Positions 1,099-33,327 of a DNA stretch of 64,000 bases are shown here, in pieces. Both the position numbers and the translations under genes were made by a program. How positions within the stretch are numbered: the stretch's first letter is position 1; every line of letters begins with the position of its first letter. Origin of the DNA: a virus; IMG/VR virus record IMGVR_UViG_3300046454_000714, positions 23,528-87,527 of that record, one strand, 5' to 3'. The notes below the pieces were generated by a model, which saw nothing but the letters and a program-made list of their open reading frames with translations, ran no database searches and was not told where the DNA came from.

Positions 1099-1518
1099 AT
1101 GGGGTTGACGGATCAGGAGTTGCGCTCACGGTTCGCGCAGGCCAAGGTGCTTCGCCTCGGGACCGTCGACGCGGCCGGCAAGCCACACCTTGTGCCCGCC
1201 ACCTTCGCCCTCGTCGGCGACGTCGTGGCCATTGCGGTCGACCACAAGCCGAAGCGGCACACCAACCTGAAGCGTCTTCGTAACGTCGAGGAGAACCCCG
1301 CCGTGACGCTCCTCGTTGACCACTTCGAAGAGGACTGGGACCGGCTCTGGTGGGTGCGCGCGGATGGCGATGCTCGTGTGATCCAAAATGAACTTGCATA
1401 CGAACTTGTAGATGCATTGGTAGACAAGTACGAGCAGTATCGCGAGCGTCGCCCCTCCGGACCGGTGATTGAAATTCACGTAAACCGCTGGTCAGGGTGG
1501 GTGGCCAAGCAGGAGTAG
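1099..1518 (+). CDS. PPOX-class F420/flavin-dependent oxidoreductase-like protein
   Basis: The 139-residue product fits small split-barrel PPOX enzymes of the Rv0121 type: an LGTVDAAGKPH-type strand, then VDHK-P-K and an N-P-x-V-T-L-L-V-D strand. Such proteins bind flavin or F420 and reduce varied substrates; the actual substrate cannot be told. Residues from about 95 onward use many AT-rich codons (for example aaa-atg-aac-ttg), unlike the GC-rich first half, which hints at recombination or recent acquisition. No clear ribosome-binding site precedes the start. It looks like an accessory gene beside the repressor. Confidence 0.75.
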   Translation: MGLTDQELRSRFAQAKVLRLGTVDAAGKPHLVPATFALVGDVVAIAVDHKPKRHTNLKRLRNVEENPAVTLLVDHFEEDWDRLWWVRADGDARVIQNELAYELVDALVDKYEQYRERRPSGPVIEIHVNRWSGWVAKQE

Positions 1519-1537
1519 ACGCATCGCGGTGACATCC

Positions 1538-1559
1538 GGTTACGCTCACTTGCGTAACC
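1538..1559. promoter_or_regulatory. Inverted repeat upstream of the GntR-family gene
   Basis: GGTTACGC and GCGTAACC are perfect 8-bp arms separated by TCACTT, ending 16 bp before the GntR start. The position suits an autoregulatory operator; binding is inferred. Confidence 0.65.
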
Positions 1560-1575
1560 ATCCGACAGGAGAGTG

Positions 1576-2352
1576 ATGACACCGAACCCGGCACGAGAGC
1601 ACCCCTACGAGAGGGTCGCCAACGAATTGCGCGCGGAGATCCTCAGGGGAGACCTCGCGCCCGGCGCGAAGCTGCCGTCCGAAAATGACCTCAAGGACCG
1701 CTTCGGCGTCACGCGGGCCACGGCGCGGAAGGGCATCGCCCTTCTCCGCATGGAAGGCCTCGTCACCTCGTTCCAGGGGAAAGGCGCGTTCGTCCGCGAG
1801 CGCCCGCACGTGAGCATGCGTCAGACCGGCAGCATCTACCGTGCGCGCCGATCGACTGGCGAGGCGAACTACAACGCCGAGGCGAAGGCGCAGGGGCAGA
1901 GGCCCAAGCAGGTGATTCGCGAGGTCGTCGAGACGGACGCGCCGGAGAAGGTCGCGGACCGTTTCGGCGTCGAGCCCGGCGCTCCGGTGGTAGTCCGCCG
2001 CCTGCTGTTTACGGTCGACGACCAGCCCATGCAGCTCTGCGATAGCTACTACGAGCGCTCCCTTGCGGCTGGCACGCCGCTTGCCGAGGCCAGGCTCATC
2101 AAGGGTGGCGCCAACTCGTTCATCGAAAACCCGGACGGGCCGATCGGTCGACGCATCGTCCAGTTCATCGAAGACCTCGACATCCGGATGCCGTACCCGC
2201 ACGAGATCGAGCTACTCGACATCCCGGCTGGCGTGCCCGTGGCGAAGGTGATGCGCACCGCTTACGACTCGGCGGGCGACGTCCTGGAAGTGCTCGACTC
2301 GATTGTTCCGTGCGATCGGCACACCTTCCGATACGTGATCGATGTGCCGTAG
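1576..2352 (+). CDS. GntR/UTRA-family transcriptional repressor (KorSA-like)
   Basis: The 258-residue protein has an N-terminal GntR winged helix (about residues 10-75, with L-P-S-E-N-D-L, R-A-T-A-R-K-G and Q-G-K-G-A-F-V) and a C-terminal UTRA ligand-binding domain (residues 100-255). The length fits the family. KorSA-type members keep AICE excision, replication and transfer genes off during integration. ATG 1576 is preferred over GTG 1573 because AGGAG lies 4 nt upstream. It sits between two CTTGGATATCCAAG palindromes and has its own inverted repeat upstream, so it is the best candidate for master repressor of both flanking promoters. Confidence 0.85.
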   Translation: MTPNPAREHPYERVANELRAEILRGDLAPGAKLPSENDLKDRFGVTRATARKGIALLRMEGLVTSFQGKGAFVRERPHVSMRQTGSIYRARRSTGEANYNAEAKAQGQRPKQVIREVVETDAPEKVADRFGVEPGAPVVVRRLLFTVDDQPMQLCDSYYERSLAAGTPLAEARLIKGGANSFIENPDGPIGRRIVQFIEDLDIRMPYPHEIELLDIPAGVPVAKVMRTAYDSAGDVLEVLDSIVPCDRHTFRYVIDVP

Positions 2353-2789: not shown

Positions 2790-3107
2790 ATGCCGATCAC
2801 CACCGCAACCCCGCCCCGCACCCCGCAGTTCCACTACGCGTCGATGCGCAACGCCGAGCAGTCGGCCCGCAGCATCTCGACGCAGTTGTCGGTGCGCGGC
2901 TTCCTCACCGGTCTCGCCGATGAGACATCGGCCGCCGAGTTCGCCAAGCTGAAGGCGACCCGCACCAGCTACTACTTGCTCGCCCTGGCGCACCGGAACG
3001 CGGCCCGCCGCCTGGAGCGCGGCCAGCGCATCCGGTCCCGTGTCGAGCGGATCGTGCGGCCGGTTGTCCGTGGCGCGCTGCGAGTCGGCCGGGCGGTGAC
3101 GGCATGA
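2790..3107 (+). CDS. Hypothetical basic protein
   Basis: The 105-residue product is not recognised. It is mostly helical, with a strongly basic C-terminal third rich in Arg and Val. The start follows the previous stop directly, and the stop overlaps the next start by 4 bp, so it is co-translated in the early operon. Confidence 0.6.
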   Translation: MPITTATPPRTPQFHYASMRNAEQSARSISTQLSVRGFLTGLADETSAAEFAKLKATRTSYYLLALAHRNAARRLERGQRIRSRVERIVRPVVRGALRVGRAVTA

Positions 3108-3319
3108 GCACCGCAACCGCCGCCCCGGCCCTGACCCTCGCCGTGAACGTGTACCGGACTGCGTCGGCTCGTACCGCGGAACTGTCGGCGGTCACGGATT
3201 CCCGCGACCTGACGCCGGGCGAGTCCGACTACCTGGCCCACGCGCAGGACATGCTGGCCGCCGCCAAGGCGACCCTCGTCCGCGCCGGCCGCCTCGACCT
3301 CATCGGGGTGGTGGCATGA
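3104..3319 (+). CDS. Small hypothetical protein
   Basis: 71 residues, helical, Ala-rich, no recognised domain. It is linked by ATGA overlaps to both the upstream and downstream genes, which supports translation as part of the operon. Confidence 0.6.
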   Translation: MSTATAAPALTLAVNVYRTASARTAELSAVTDSRDLTPGESDYLAHAQDMLAAAKATLVRAGRLDLIGVVA

Positions 3320-3552
3320 GCCCCGCCGACGTTGCCGCGCACATCGCGGCCCAGGGCCCGGTTCGCACCCGCCCCGTCGCAACTCCGCAGCGCACGGTCC
3401 TGGAGCGTTTCCCGGCTGGCGCCCCGCGGGGCCAGTGGCCGGCGGAGTCCTTCGCCGCGGACCGTCGCCGCGAGGGTGTTCCGGCCCGCGTGGTCATGGA
3501 CCTCAACTCGGACGCGTTCCTCGTGATCGTCGAGGCCGGTGATCCCCGATGA
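3316..3552 (+). CDS. Small hypothetical protein
   Basis: 78 residues with a Pro/Arg-rich middle and a hydrophobic C-terminal strand (V-V-M-D-L, F-L-V-I-V). No family recognised. It overlaps both neighbours by 4 bp. Confidence 0.6.
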   Translation: MSPADVAAHIAAQGPVRTRPVATPQRTVLERFPAGAPRGQWPAESFAADRRREGVPARVVMDLNSDAFLVIVEAGDPR

Positions 3553-3725
3553 GCTTCCCGATCCCGGACCCGTCGCCGGAGGAGGAGTTGGCGGCCAGCG
3601 TGGACGACATCTTCCTCGGCTGGTGGCCCGACGACTTGATGGCCATCGTCCGCGCCCCGTACACGGGTGGCGCCCTCGCCGCCTATGCGCACATCGACGG
3701 CGGCAAGTACCTGCCGCCGGAGTAG
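3549..3725 (+). CDS. Small acidic hypothetical protein
   Basis: 58 residues, starting at the ATGA overlap with the previous gene. It contains an E-E-E stretch and an F-L-G-W-W-P-D-D segment. Not recognised. Tight coupling is the main evidence that it is translated. Confidence 0.55.
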   Translation: MSFPIPDPSPEEELAASVDDIFLGWWPDDLMAIVRAPYTGGALAAYAHIDGGKYLPPE

Positions 3726-3829
3726 CGCCCCCAAGACCGCCGCGGGTGGGTCGACAACCCCCCGTCCCCGCCCGCGGTGCCCAACCCCGCCCCACCCCAT
3801 CCGCTCCTGCTGACCAGAGAGGCTCCGTC

Positions 3830-4069
3830 ATGTCTTCCACCGCCCACCCCACCGCCCAGTCGGCCCCGGCGACGGCCACCGTCGAGCTCTTCTGGGTGAT
3901 GACCGTACAGACGGCCGACGGTCGCGTGAACACCCGGACCGCCGTGCTCACGGTCCCGGTCGGGTTCACCCGCGCCGAGGCGTTCGGGTACGTCTTCGCG
4001 CAGTTCAAGGAGGCCTACGGCAGCCCACTCACGGTCCTTTTCTTCGACCTCGCCGAGAACAAGATCTAG
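3830..4069 (+). CDS. Small hypothetical protein
   Basis: 79 residues, starting at ATG 3830 after a GAGAGG site. After a Thr/Ala-rich start it has a beta-strand-rich body and ends with an F-F-D-L-A-E motif. No family recognised. Similar GAGAGGANNCC leaders precede many later genes in this operon. Confidence 0.65.
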   Translation: MSSTAHPTAQSAPATATVELFWVMTVQTADGRVNTRTAVLTVPVGFTRAEAFGYVFAQFKEAYGSPLTVLFFDLAENKI

Positions 4070-4114
4070 CTCCGCCCCACCCCCACTGCTCCTGCTGATC
4101 CGAAAGGGATCCCC

Positions 4115-4348
4115 ATGTCTCCGTTCGTCCTGTCCGACGCCGATCTGGCCGTCACGACCCAGCTGGCCGCGCGCCGTCGGGAGCGCACCACGGTCGCGGA
4201 TGCGTTCACCGAGTTGTTCGGCGACGACTTCACCCGCGCCCTGTACCGGGAGACCACGTATGCGGTGCCGGATTCGGAGCGGCAGACGTGCCCGGTGCAC
4301 CAGGACTGGCGGATGGACTGCCAGCACCTGCACCTGAAGGCCGCCTGA
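4115..4348 (+). CDS. Small hypothetical protein
   Basis: 77 residues with a helical N-terminal half and a C/H-containing C-terminus (T-C-P-V-H-Q-D-W-R-M-D-C-Q-H) that could bind a metal. An AAAGGGA site lies upstream. Function unknown. Confidence 0.6.
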   Translation: MSPFVLSDADLAVTTQLAARRRERTTVADAFTELFGDDFTRALYRETTYAVPDSERQTCPVHQDWRMDCQHLHLKAA

Positions 4349-4500
4349 TGTCCGGCCGGAAGCGCGACGACGCGCCGCCGAAGCCCCCGCCGACGCCCGA
4401 CCCCGCCGCAGTCGCCCGCGCCAAGCGTGAAGCGGACGCCCTGCGCACGACAGCCCGGGAGCTGCCGGAGATCGACCCCGCCGACGCCAAGTACTGGTAG
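4348..4500 (+). CDS. Small hypothetical protein
   Basis: 50 residues, Pro-rich then charged helix, starting in the ATGA overlap with the previous gene. Not recognised. Confidence 0.5.
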   Translation: MSGRKRDDAPPKPPPTPDPAAVARAKREADALRTTARELPEIDPADAKYW

Positions 4501-4526
4501 CCAACCCCGCCCCGAGAGAGGACGCC

Positions 4527-4724
4527 ATGTCTCGCTTCACAGTCACCCGCCGCGGCGCATCCGGCCCCGGCGAGGGCGGCCAGTACACGTACAGCACCCG
4601 CGCCGACAGCCCCGCCGAGGCGGTCGCCAAGACCGCCGCCAAGGCGGAGCGGCTGCATCACCGCATCAACCGGGGCGGCACCGTCCTCGACCCGGAACCC
4701 ACCGACATCACCCGCATCGACTAG
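4527..4724 (+). CDS. Small hypothetical protein
   Basis: 65 residues after a GAGAGGA site. It has a basic N-terminus, then a Y-T-Y-S-T-R strand and an Ala-rich helix. Not recognised. Confidence 0.6.
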   Translation: MSRFTVTRRGASGPGEGGQYTYSTRADSPAEAVAKTAAKAERLHHRINRGGTVLDPEPTDITRID

Positions 4725-31335: not shown

Positions 31336-33327
31336 GTGGCCGTCGAGACGCAGGCGCACCAGGACATCATCGACGCCTATGGCCGGTCTCAGCAGCGGGC
31401 TGTCATCCAGACGACGGTGACGCTGCAGCGGCTGTGGAAGGAGCTTGCGGCCACGGATCTCTCACGGTCGTGGCTCGGGGGTCTGGGTGCGGCGATGGTG
31501 CGGGCCGTGTCGGCCGGCCAGTTGGTGGCGGCGTCGACGGGCCAGAAGTACATCGAGGCGATGGTCCGCGGGGATGGGCTGGGCAACAACTACATGGAGC
31601 AGGCGTCGCATGTCGACGCCCGCTCGTTCTCGGGTGCCGCGTCGGACGGCCGGGCGCTGGACAGCCTGCTGTATCTGCCGGTGATTCGCACGAAGACGCT
31701 GATCGGTAACGGGCTGACGTTGCAGGAGGCGATGCTCGGCGGCAGGGCCCAGCTCTTGCAGGTGGCCGCTTCGGAGGTCGCGGATGCGGGCCGTGGTGCG
31801 GCCAGTGTGTCGATGATCGCGAACCGGTCGGTGACGGGCTACGTGCGGACTGTCCGCTCGGGGGCCTGTGCGCGGTGCGCGATTCTCGCTGGCCGCTGGT
31901 ACCGGTGGAATGCCGACTTCGAACGGCACAAGAGGTGCTTCCCCGCCGGTGTCGTCGTGTCAGGCCCGCGCACGCTGGCGGCCACGCGGCGGCGGTATGA
32001 GGGGGAACTCGTCATCCTCACGACGGCGAGTGGCCAGGAGCTCCCCGCCACCGGCAATCACCCGATACTGACGCGACGCGGCTGGGTCGCTGCCAATCTC
32101 ATCCAGGAAGGCGACGAGGTAGTCCGCAGCCTCCGGCCGGAGGGCGCTGCGCCCCTCGTAGTCCCAGATCATCAGCAGATGCCATCCCGCATCGAGGATG
32201 TATGGGCTACGGAGAGCGTGGCGGGCGTGCTTCGCGGCGTGCCAACCACCGCCGAGGATTTCCACGGCGACGGAGGCCACGGCGAAGTCGACGTTGTAGG
32301 GCCCAACCGCTTTCTGTGGGGTGAAGTCGAGGCAGCGCTCGCGCAGCATCTGGGCGAAGAGGTCCTCACCGTCGGAGCGTTGGGCTCGATCGGCATTCCG
32401 CTCTCGGCTCAGCGCGGCCACTTTGAGCGTGTCACCGGAGATCGGTTTGCCGCGGACGGCGTCATGGGCGGCCTGCGTGATCCTGGCCCGCTCCTCGGGG
32501 CTGGCCTTGGACATGCGCAGGGCATTGGCTTCAGCGCGGTCGCGGAGATGCGTCCCGGCCTGCTTGAGGTGGCGCCGCACGACGCCTCGCATGACGCCAT
32601 AGCGGATGGATATGGACTGTTCGCTCTCTCCGCTCTCGTAGGCGGCAACGAGTTCAGCGGTGGGGAGATCTATGGCGCAGGGCCGCGGTGGGATGCCGCG
32701 GGCCTGGCGGGCTCGATGGAAGACGCTGAGCGAGATGCCCGAGTTGGCCGCGAGCTCCTTGAGCGGCTCGCCGGACAGGTAGAGCTCGATCGCGTGGTCG
32801 AGGCGCGCAGGGTCAGTTGGTCCGGGCATGTGTATGACCTCAATTCGACAGAGGGCTGGTTCAACGCGAACGGCCTAATCGTATCTAACTGTCAGTGCTA
32901 CGGGGTGCCAGCTACAGAGGCTCGCCCGGGCCGTCACACGAACCCGATGTCGTTCTTTCAGGGTCTGTCGCGCGCGGAGCAGGATCGCCGGTTCACGATC
33001 GGCGGCGCGGAGGCGATCCGGAACGGCGCCGACATCTACTCGGTGGTGAACGCGGGCCGTTCGACGATCACGCTGGACGCCTACGGCAAGAAGGTCGTGG
33101 CGACGCTCGAAGGCACGACGAAGCGCGGCGCGTTCTACCAGCAGATGCTGCGTGAGGCCGAGCAGCGCACCGGGCAGAGGTTCGCCCGGAACGGCTACGA
33201 CCTGGAGCGTGGCCTGCCCCGCTTTCACCTGCGGACGCCACGGCTCACGCCCGGCGAGATCCTGCGTCTCTCGGATGACCGTAACGAGCTGATCCGCCTG
33301 CTACGGCGTTTCGGCTACCTGTCGTAG
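31336..33327 (+). CDS. MuF-like minor head protein interrupted by an intein
   Basis: 663 codons; the mature protein after splicing would be 345 residues. The N-extein (1-200) is helical and carries C-A-R-C (178-181) and F-E-R-H-K-R. The C-extein begins C-Q-C-Y-G-V-P (519 onward), so the intein interrupts the conserved R-H-x-x-C-x-C motif of MuF proteins. MuF proteins sit inside the head near the portal. The start is GTG 31336, 2 bp after the portal stop. The protein cannot mature without splicing. Confidence 0.88.
   Translation: MAVETQAHQDIIDAYGRSQQRAVIQTTVTLQRLWKELAATDLSRSWLGGLGAAMVRAVSAGQLVAASTGQKYIEAMVRGDGLGNNYMEQASHVDARSFSGAASDGRALDSLLYLPVIRTKTLIGNGLTLQEAMLGGRAQLLQVAASEVADAGRGAASVSMIANRSVTGYVRTVRSGACARCAILAGRWYRWNADFERHKRCFPAGVVVSGPRTLAATRRRYEGELVILTTASGQELPATGNHPILTRRGWVAANLIQEGDEVVRSLRPEGAAPLVVPDHQQMPSRIEDVWATESVAGVLRGVPTTAEDFHGDGGHGEVDVVGPNRFLWGEVEAALAQHLGEEVLTVGALGSIGIPLSAQRGHFERVTGDRFAADGVMGGLRDPGPLLGAGLGHAQGIGFSAVAEMRPGLLEVAPHDASHDAIADGYGLFALSALVGGNEFSGGEIYGAGPRWDAAGLAGSMEDAERDARVGRELLERLAGQVELDRVVEARRVSWSGHVYDLNSTEGWFNANGLIVSNCQCYGVPATEARPGRHTNPMSFFQGLSRAEQDRRFTIGGAEAIRNGADIYSVVNAGRSTITLDAYGKKVVATLEGTTKRGAFYQQMLREAEQRTGQRFARNGYDLERGLPRFHLRTPRLTPGEILRLSDDRNELIRLLRRFGYLS
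31936..32889 (+). other. Intein within the MuF-like protein (318 residues)
   Basis: It starts at Cys201 (C-F-P-A-G, block A), has a block B T-G-N-H-P-I-L-T about 40 residues later, and ends with V-Y-D-L-N-S-T-E-G-W-F-N-A-N-G-L-I-V-S-N before the +1 Cys519 (blocks F and G). The penultimate residue is Ser, not the usual His. The middle about 190 residues lack LAGLIDADG or HNH motifs on this strand; a nuclease gene lies antisense across it. Confidence 0.88.
31960..32829 (-). CDS. Antisense Vsr-like homing endonuclease nested in the intein
   Basis: 289 residues on the opposite strand, lying entirely inside the intein. GAGGT lies 8 nt before ATG 32829. Residues 1-115 hold repeated helix-turn-helix units (E-L-V-A-A-Y-E-S-G-E-S-E-Q-S-I-S). 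A K-A-S-P-E-E-R-A-R-I linker follows. The catalytic part has Y-N-V-D-F-A-V, V-A-V-E-I-L-G-G-G-W-H and Y-I-L-D-A-G-W-H-L-L-M-I-W, the D...E pattern of Vsr/DUF559-type nucleases. Residue composition and ordered motifs show it is a real protein, not a shadow frame. It would cut intein-free alleles to spread the intein. Confidence 0.82.
   Translation of the reverse strand: MPGPTDPARLDHAIELYLSGEPLKELAANSGISLSVFHRARQARGIPPRPCAIDLPTAELVAAYESGESEQSISIRYGVMRGVVRRHLKQAGTHLRDRAEANALRMSKASPEERARITQAAHDAVRGKPISGDTLKVAALSRERNADRAQRSDGEDLFAQMLRERCLDFTPQKAVGPYNVDFAVASVAVEILGGGWHAAKHARHALRSPYILDAGWHLLMIWDYEGRSALRPEAADYLVAFLDEIGSDPAASRQYRVIAGGGELLATRRREDDEFPLIPPPRGRQRARA

Follow-up and report, generated by a model that had tools for sequence, protein, structure and literature searches.

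In the virus record IMGVR_UViG_3300046454_000714, a MuF-type head gene contains what is very likely a mobile intein with its homing endonuclease gene on the opposite strand of its coding DNA, the two frames being in exact codon register. The evidence consists of open and conserved frames, selection partitioned by strand, the predicted folds of the two proteins, an imprint of initiation signals, the scarless and polymorphic nature of the insertion, and the sequence divergence localized around it. These are all direct observations; expression, splicing, cleavage and homing are inferred. Far from being confined to this phage, the arrangement is widespread, being found at more than 100 phage loci. 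If the reading is correct, it represents a new architecture for mobile inteins, in which the mobility and splicing functions are specified by opposite strands of the same codons.

Organization of the locus

The DNA analyzed here (the window) is a stretch of 64,000 nucleotides taken from within the 87.5 kb source record. A single unbroken ORF at 31336-33327 (+), coding for 663 amino acids, matches PHROG 1522, head maturation protease (E = 1e-69), which identifies its product as a MuF-type head protein; the gene is located in an intact head operon. Residues 201-518 of this ORF constitute the intein, with an exact span of 31936-32889 (318 residues), beginning with Cys1 at 31936 and ending with Asn318 at 32889, after which comes the Cys+1. 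As both exteins and the intein are contained in the one ORF, the criterion for a split intein, namely two ORFs, is not met. The antisense nuclease frame is in exact codon register with that of the intein: the codons of the two frames coincide triplet by triplet as reverse complements, and position 3 of a codon on one strand pairs with position 1 on the other. The features of the locus are:

31336..31935 (+), N-extein of the MuF-like head protein, which in relatives without the intein continues directly into the C-extein
31936..32274 (+), intein N-terminal splicing region, residues 1-113, with blocks A and B and the DFHGDG motif (Pfam PF14890, excess conservation, AlphaFold)
32275..32787 (+), intein middle, residues 114-284, open, with the plus frame otherwise largely unconstrained (conservation, substitutions, pLDDT)
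32788..32889 (+), intein C-terminal splicing region, residues 285-318, with blocks F and G and the terminal Asn (Pfam, substitutions, conservation, AlphaFold)
32890..33327 (+), C-extein, with the Cys+1 nucleophile first (ORF; joined exteins in intein-less relatives)
31960..32829 (-), antisense gene for a predicted EDxHD/Vsr-like homing endonuclease, 289 codons (DUF559/MTES_1575/HTH_58, PDB profiles, pLDDT 93, purifying selection)
32560..32811 (-), tandem helix-turn-helix (HTH) DNA-binding part, nuclease residues 7-90 (HTH_58, HTH_23, match to 2lvs, predicted helices)
32023..32388 (-), nuclease domain, residues 148-269, with E155 near-invariant and N179, D181, E190 and R207 invariant (Pfam, family alignment, PDB profiles, structure)
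32827..32829 (-), ATG start of the nuclease, which on the plus strand reads CAT, the conserved His codon of block F (CAT enrichment)
32837..32842 (-), Shine-Dalgarno sequence TGAGGT, antisense of the block F Asp-Leu codons (Leu CTC enrichment, motif imprint)
32878..32883 (-), putative antisense -10 element TACGAT, antisense of block G (family-wide imprint; weak in the window itself)

An earlier sequence-only reading of the window had placed a 318-residue intein with splicing blocks at both ends at 31936-32889 of a MuF-like protein, and this held exactly. It had also proposed a 289-codon minus-strand gene at 31960-32829, lying wholly inside the intein and possessing its own ribosome-binding site, which held as well, with an ATG start and TGAGGT upstream. 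Its further calls, that the plus strand lacks a homing-nuclease motif between the splicing blocks and that the minus-strand product is a Vsr-like nuclease, are likewise supported by the analyses below.

The splicing domain and the antisense nuclease

The splicing features of the window intein comprise Cys1, the NHP motif of block B, GHVYDL of block F, SN of block G and the Cys+1, which is also present in nearly all relatives. The Pfam Intein_splicing model (PF14890) detects it with E = 3e-7, just under the curated cutoff, and is matched by 57 of 62 members of the intein family; Cys1, His42 (block B) and Asn318 are invariant across 72 members, and Gly49 and Asp112 are invariant as well. Profile searches of the PDB with the intein match many solved inteins. 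AlphaFold models of both the intein and the nuclease were computed from 62-member alignments. Residues 1-73 and about 260-318 of the intein mostly have pLDDT >85, residues 80-124 are intermediate, and most of 125-247 falls below 50, with the N-terminal region being confident to about residue 121 except for a loop near 74-79. The best Foldseek matches of this model are the RecA and RadA mini-inteins (prob 0.99-1.00, with E-values of only 0.004-0.02). In Pfam searches the plus frame matches Intein_splicing only, no in-frame nuclease domain being found between blocks B and F, and the intein middle is predicted to be disordered and is not conserved. By its blocks, its fold and the intein-less alleles described below, the insert is a Hint-type intein; self-splicing itself is inferred. 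The DFHGDG motif (32257-32274) lies far from the classical splicing blocks and faces nuclease residues 186-191; it is conserved more than the antisense VAVE motif demands.

The antisense protein of the window matches HTH_58 and DUF559/MTES_1575 in Pfam, the DUF559 match being modest (E = 6e-5). The profile of its family recovers from the PDB the Vsr-like 3hrl (E = 3e-5) and 3r3p, the EDxHD homing endonuclease I-Bth0305I (E = 1e-3), along with the tandem-HTH protein 2lvs and, weakly, Vsr itself. The AlphaFold model is confident over nearly its whole length (pLDDT 93.1), and Foldseek agrees on 3hrl and 3r3p (prob 0.99-1.00, with E only about 0.01). With respect to the EDxHD signature, E155, D181 and E190 are conserved family-wide, H197 reaches >=90% only in the closer set and the assignment of the last D is uncertain. 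From this homology and the predicted fold, in the absence of cleavage data, we infer that the protein is an EDxHD/Vsr-like nuclease with a tandem HTH. None of the annotated phage records that we opened with the element inserted bears a nuclease-strand feature at that place, indicating that annotation overlooks this gene.

Conservation of the antisense frame

A tblastn search of phage records with the minus-strand protein recovered 115 records; with the loci added by scanning IMG/VR and genome contigs, the collection reached 123 distinct loci. The named features under the tblastn matches are mostly head or capsid morphogenesis genes, and the nuclease is antisense to the host gene in every region opened. 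A broad alignment of the family yielded no conserved stretch usable as a search query, and clade alignments were used instead. The in-register antisense frame is fully open in 121 of the 123 loci, which range from 38 to 71% GC; the other frames at these loci average 6-34 stops.

An obvious objection is that high GC alone holds the minus ORF open, making it a mere shadow ORF. In GC-rich DNA, exact codon register is the antisense register that stays open by chance most frequently, and so the one most prone to spurious ORFs; the window has 68% GC at the insert, and just 1.4 in-register stops are expected per locus above 60% GC. Against this, the frame is open in homologues with 38-55% GC, and it is conserved at 38-50% GC: the 26 loci below 50% GC have about nine in-register stops expected per locus and none observed. 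Over 117 loci, no in-register stop was seen where 459 are expected from the codon usage of each host gene. The explanation is further contradicted by the relatives of the nuclease and HTH parts, a free-standing homologue and the confident fold, and it is refuted by the substitutions in the intein middle, which are silent on the minus strand (see below). Hence, it is all but excluded.

Internal nonsense codons interrupt the nuclease frame with the intein frame still open in L139 (codon 118) and L131 (codon 233); in L102, which has one at codon 28, the opposite frame is closed too. Nonsense and missense changes would be the expected route of decay for the nuclease because frameshifts would also break the head protein. 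An extra stop in L040 was considered as a case of decay and rejected, since it falls at codon 282 and merely gives a shorter tail. L073 is the only locus with an intact nuclease and a closed opposite frame: here the nuclease is free-standing, with its own ribosome site, at 3807-4661 (-), convergent with an intact intein-less MuF gene at 2851-3816 (+) that it overlaps by 10 bases. This could be an ancestor-like state.

Selection switches strand along the intein

Each triplet constitutes one codon per strand and, therefore, every single substitution can be classified as silent or replacing on each strand. We pooled 12 largely independent pairs, defining the middle zone as intein residues 66-272. 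Rates per opportunity in this zone are 0.062 for changes silent on both strands and 0.008 for those replacing on both. Nuclease-silent/intein-replacing changes occur at 0.059 versus 0.018 for the nuclease-replacing/intein-silent class, a 3.2-fold bias that recurs in 12 of 12 pairs (ratios 2.1-5.0). Silent and replacing intein changes are equally common in this zone. At the splicing ends the situation is reversed, with a nuclease-silent to intein-silent ratio of 0.40 in the N-terminal and 0.12 in the C-terminal zone; the corresponding ratios in the exteins are 0.06 and 0.10. Nonetheless, the splicing zones appear to be dual-constrained because nuclease-replacing changes are rarer there than doubly silent ones (0.055 vs 0.131 and 0.062 vs 0.100), with the caveat that doubly silent events are few.

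A conditional test, comparing the residue conservation of each strand with that expected from the other strand and codon usage, points the same way. Only residues 9-60, 108-113 (DFHGDG) and 285-298 show intein conservation above this expectation, the excess being near zero over 114-268. Excess nuclease conservation covers most of the remaining positions, and a few codons, such as A188/G111, carry both. This conditional conservation also rejects the idea that the nuclease is a mere shadow of intein conservation for its HTH and catalytic regions; the idea is true only for part of the C-terminal tail, e.g., QYRVI opposite NHPILT. Thus, selection switches strand, acting on the nuclease strand in the middle and on the intein strand at both splicing ends.

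These data also bear on a second alternative, under which the nuclease alone is functional and the plus-strand insert no longer splices, either remaining in the head protein or having killed it. The relaxed and predicted disordered middle and the sub-cutoff Pfam match of the window member might be taken in its favor. However, disorder in place of a nuclease domain is expected when the nuclease is encoded elsewhere, and this alternative is at odds with the five invariant intein residues (Cys1, His42, Gly49, Asp112 and Asn318), the strong suppression of replacement changes on the intein strand in both splicing zones and the intact head operon around the host gene. We hence consider it very unlikely, and a decayed, non-splicing intein was rejected as the main reading on account of the plus-strand selection on both splicing zones.

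The sequence-only reading had held that both strands must stay open, and this is borne out across the homologues by the 121 of 123 open antisense frames. Its claim that both proteins are constrained codon by codon held only in part, being true of about 110 intein codons at the N-terminal end and 35 at the C-terminal end; it failed for the intein middle, where nothing more than the absence of stops is required of the intein frame. It had suggested computing codon-level selection on each strand in homologues, and the above analysis, which did so, finds the nuclease frame conserved through the middle. Neither of the outcomes that it named as refuting, conservation of the plus frame alone with frequent minus-frame stops in homologues or the lack of any stand-alone relative of the minus-strand protein, materialized: the minus frame is conserved, and the copy at L073 is such a relative. 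Antisense overlapping genes are a disputed topic, and this family offers a large, deeply conserved natural test case, valuable because the exact codon register allows selection on each strand to be read codon by codon.

Initiation signals within the splicing blocks

The arrangement predicts a concrete start of transcription and of translation hidden in the intein motifs. The nuclease start lies opposite the block F His codon, with CAT reading as ATG and CAC as GTG on the other strand. At this His, the CAT:CAC usage is 69:22 compared to 113:282 in the exteins (p = 2e-16). The codons for the VY(N/D)L(Q/E) motif that follows the His specify, in antisense, a Shine-Dalgarno sequence that usually reads GGAGGT or CGAGGT and is located about 7 bases upstream of the start; correspondingly, the block F Leu is encoded by CTC in 73/86 cases as opposed to 655/2412 in the exteins (p = 9e-28). 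Farther upstream, the antisense of block G forms a -10-like hexamer, which in many relatives is TATAAT or TACAAT. Matches to TATAAT exceed controls based on extein codon usage (z = 20) and on the intein's own usage (z = 14), and rank first of 20 permutations. Among 34 lower-GC loci, TGTGTTATAAT is complete in 10, against 0.2 expected. Local AT-richness accounts for part of the -10 excess, and neighboring segments show smaller excesses. A scan of the window for sigma-70 consensus promoters found none. Given the weak copy in the window (TACGAT) and the local AT-richness, promoter function is an inference at the level of the family. The DNA of blocks F and G thus contains, on its minus strand, the nuclease start, Shine-Dalgarno and -10-like site.

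Inferred mobility and intein-less relatives

Using the spliced window MuF protein as a query, we recovered relatives with an uninterrupted gene. The best of these (L168) is 94.8% identical over 7 kb, with the exteins joined precisely and without a scar; identity drops to about 82% within 60 bases of the junction, where the divergence peaks. Comparable scarless empty sites with raised divergence nearby are seen between Vivi2 and Shivanishola (316-residue insert) and between BPS11Q3 and PBSE191 (272 residues). The element occurs in only a minority of near-identical MuF genes, namely in 7/110 Gordonia, 58/386 Salmonella/E. coli and 8/74 Klebsiella-group records, with presence counted when most of the query was covered. 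This mosaic presence and the divergence at the junction form the pattern expected of homing with co-conversion, from which homing is inferred, although the exteins may have adapted locally, which would account for some of the divergence. Once the exteins are allowed for, the distances of the nuclease and of the intein ends are only moderately correlated (partial r = 0.33), which might leave room for some swapping or noise.

A third alternative accepts that the antisense protein is expressed but holds that the phage has recruited it to regulate through DNA binding or to assist packaging, and not for homing. The HTH domains are conserved as well as the nuclease domain, and from an antisense position in a late operon a regulatory role is conceivable. 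This is countered by the conservation of the catalytic-type residues E155, D181 and E190, the presence of the element in a minority of near-identical phages, its location within an intein at the very site needing to be cut, and the nuclease-frame nonsense codons of L131 and L139 with the intein frame still open. Recruitment therefore seems a remote prospect, and a homing role for the nuclease remains our preferred reading.

Several members depart from the usual setting. One (L009:2920-3834) is at a different site, where an RTE motif and then TMGVYNR are found in place of the usual Cys-x-Cys. Another, in Virus Rctr197k (L024:748-1632), comprises the same intein with its antisense nuclease in an apparent dCMP deaminase (PCVAC then AKRLINLGN); the record labels this host gene a head morphogenesis protein, and a transfer of the element to an unrelated gene is possible. 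The plasmid records NZ_LN890657.1 and NZ_CP108975.1 contain nuclease relatives, one of them at a gene whose annotation reads phage minor head protein, raising the possibility that phage-like plasmids carry the element.

A second case in Gordonia phages

In the Gordonia phages Thing3, Lennon, Sitar, Nordenberg, SchottB and Barsten, the same position of MuF is occupied by an unrelated intein of 275 residues (Hint_2), with an antisense ORF of 196 codons in exact register bearing a FIDGEG motif. In Thing3 (L162; see also L163 and L164) the intein spans 1374-2198 and the antisense nuclease 1488-2075 (-). Pfam gives no match for this second nuclease itself. It is related to stand-alone phage homing endonucleases, and we assign it as LAGLIDADG-like because a 30% identical homologue from a Caulobacter phage matches LAGLIDADG_1. 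Between Lennon and Barsten, the only sequence pair on which the estimate of selection rests, single changes in the first 120 nuclease codons are nuclease-silent in 28 cases and intein-silent in 1, with the opposite bias in the splicing regions on either side; the nuclease is thus under strong selection on its own strand. At this MuF site, Gordonia phage ViaConlectus has a diverged allele of a third kind (L021:2462-3286), so that no fewer than three types of intein compete for a single insertion point in related Gordonia phages.

Hence, an antisense in-register nuclease appears to have arisen at least twice, from unrelated enzymes (EDxHD and LAGLIDADG-like), with the second case depending on the one pair. 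In a bolder reading, which we regard as likely, this is a general, repeatedly evolved intein design, in which the DNA of blocks F and G serves as the promoter and ribosome site of the nuclease and to which two nuclease families came independently, in unrelated inteins but in the same register and at the same site.

Proposed mechanism

In the preferred reading, the plus strand, as part of a late transcript, would yield a head-protein precursor, from which the Hint domain formed by the two ends of the insert would splice out the intein. The minus strand would give rise to a separate transcript from the -10-like site in block G, translated from the Shine-Dalgarno and start in block F into a 289-residue protein combining a tandem HTH with the EDxHD/Vsr-like nuclease domain. 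In a mixed infection, MuF genes lacking the intein would be cleaved by this enzyme at the conserved Cys-x-Cys codons where the intein inserts, and the break would be repaired by copying in the intein together with flanking DNA. As the insertion destroys the target, the carrier would be protected. The timing of expression, splicing and cleavage are all inferred, there being no transcript, protein, splicing or cleavage data.

Comparison with known systems

In the literature searched, which excluded a 2025 preprint on non-canonical actinobacteriophage inteins (10.1101/2025.01.02.630785), we found no antisense nuclease within an intein; that preprint may anticipate part of the finding. Head-gene inteins have been noted in Jerseyvirus and Kagunavirus without an antisense nuclease (PMC8425127, PMC11162368), as likewise in the annotation of Snoke, and the MuF intein of a Mu-like prophage of Methylococcus capsulatus was reported to lack a recognizable endonuclease (PMC517821), the opposite strand apparently not having been considered. 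The antisense arrangement could explain why many phage head-gene inteins seemingly lack an endonuclease yet behave as mobile elements.

Homing nucleases are normally fused in frame with the intein or encoded between split halves. The sequence-only reading had regarded the antisense arrangement as a different solution from these; this held, but as a widespread class with a second independent instance rather than a singular case. Large inteins of the canonical type, whose LAGLIDADG or HNH homing nuclease is in frame, resemble the window element in that the nuclease coding sequence interrupts the Hint domain between the terminal blocks, in their precise insertion at a conserved motif and in their mobile distribution. 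The window element differs in having its nuclease as a separate polypeptide from the opposite strand and a plus-strand middle that lacks a nuclease and is predicted to be disordered. The "fractured genes" (Dassa and colleagues 2009), reportedly with free-standing Vsr-like nucleases between intein halves in split genes, likewise pair this nuclease superfamily with intein parts; in the window, however, host gene and intein form one ORF, which the nuclease overlaps antisense.

EDxHD (Vsr-like) homing endonucleases are known, as exemplified by I-Bth0305I from a group I intron (PDB 3r3p; PMC3943268), which shares with the window nuclease the profile and fold of the nuclease domain, a modular DNA-binding part and a phage origin. 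The latter is distinguished by its antisense location inside an intein rather than in a group I intron and by a DNA-binding part made of tandem HTHs. The ShiLan type, a hidden out-of-frame, same-strand HNH insertion in phage methylases without a splicing domain (PMC11855218), is comparable in that an insertion which leaves the phage gene in frame conceals a homing-type nuclease in a different frame. Its insertion is thought to be retained in the protein, whereas the window combines an antisense register with a splicing Hint domain and does not meet the definition of that type. Finally, nuclear group I introns of Didymium carry antisense homing endonuclease genes for which expression and cleavage were demonstrated (PMC9548176). 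These too place a homing nuclease opposite a self-splicing element, but that element is an RNA intron with no second coding frame, unlike the window, in which both strands code for protein.
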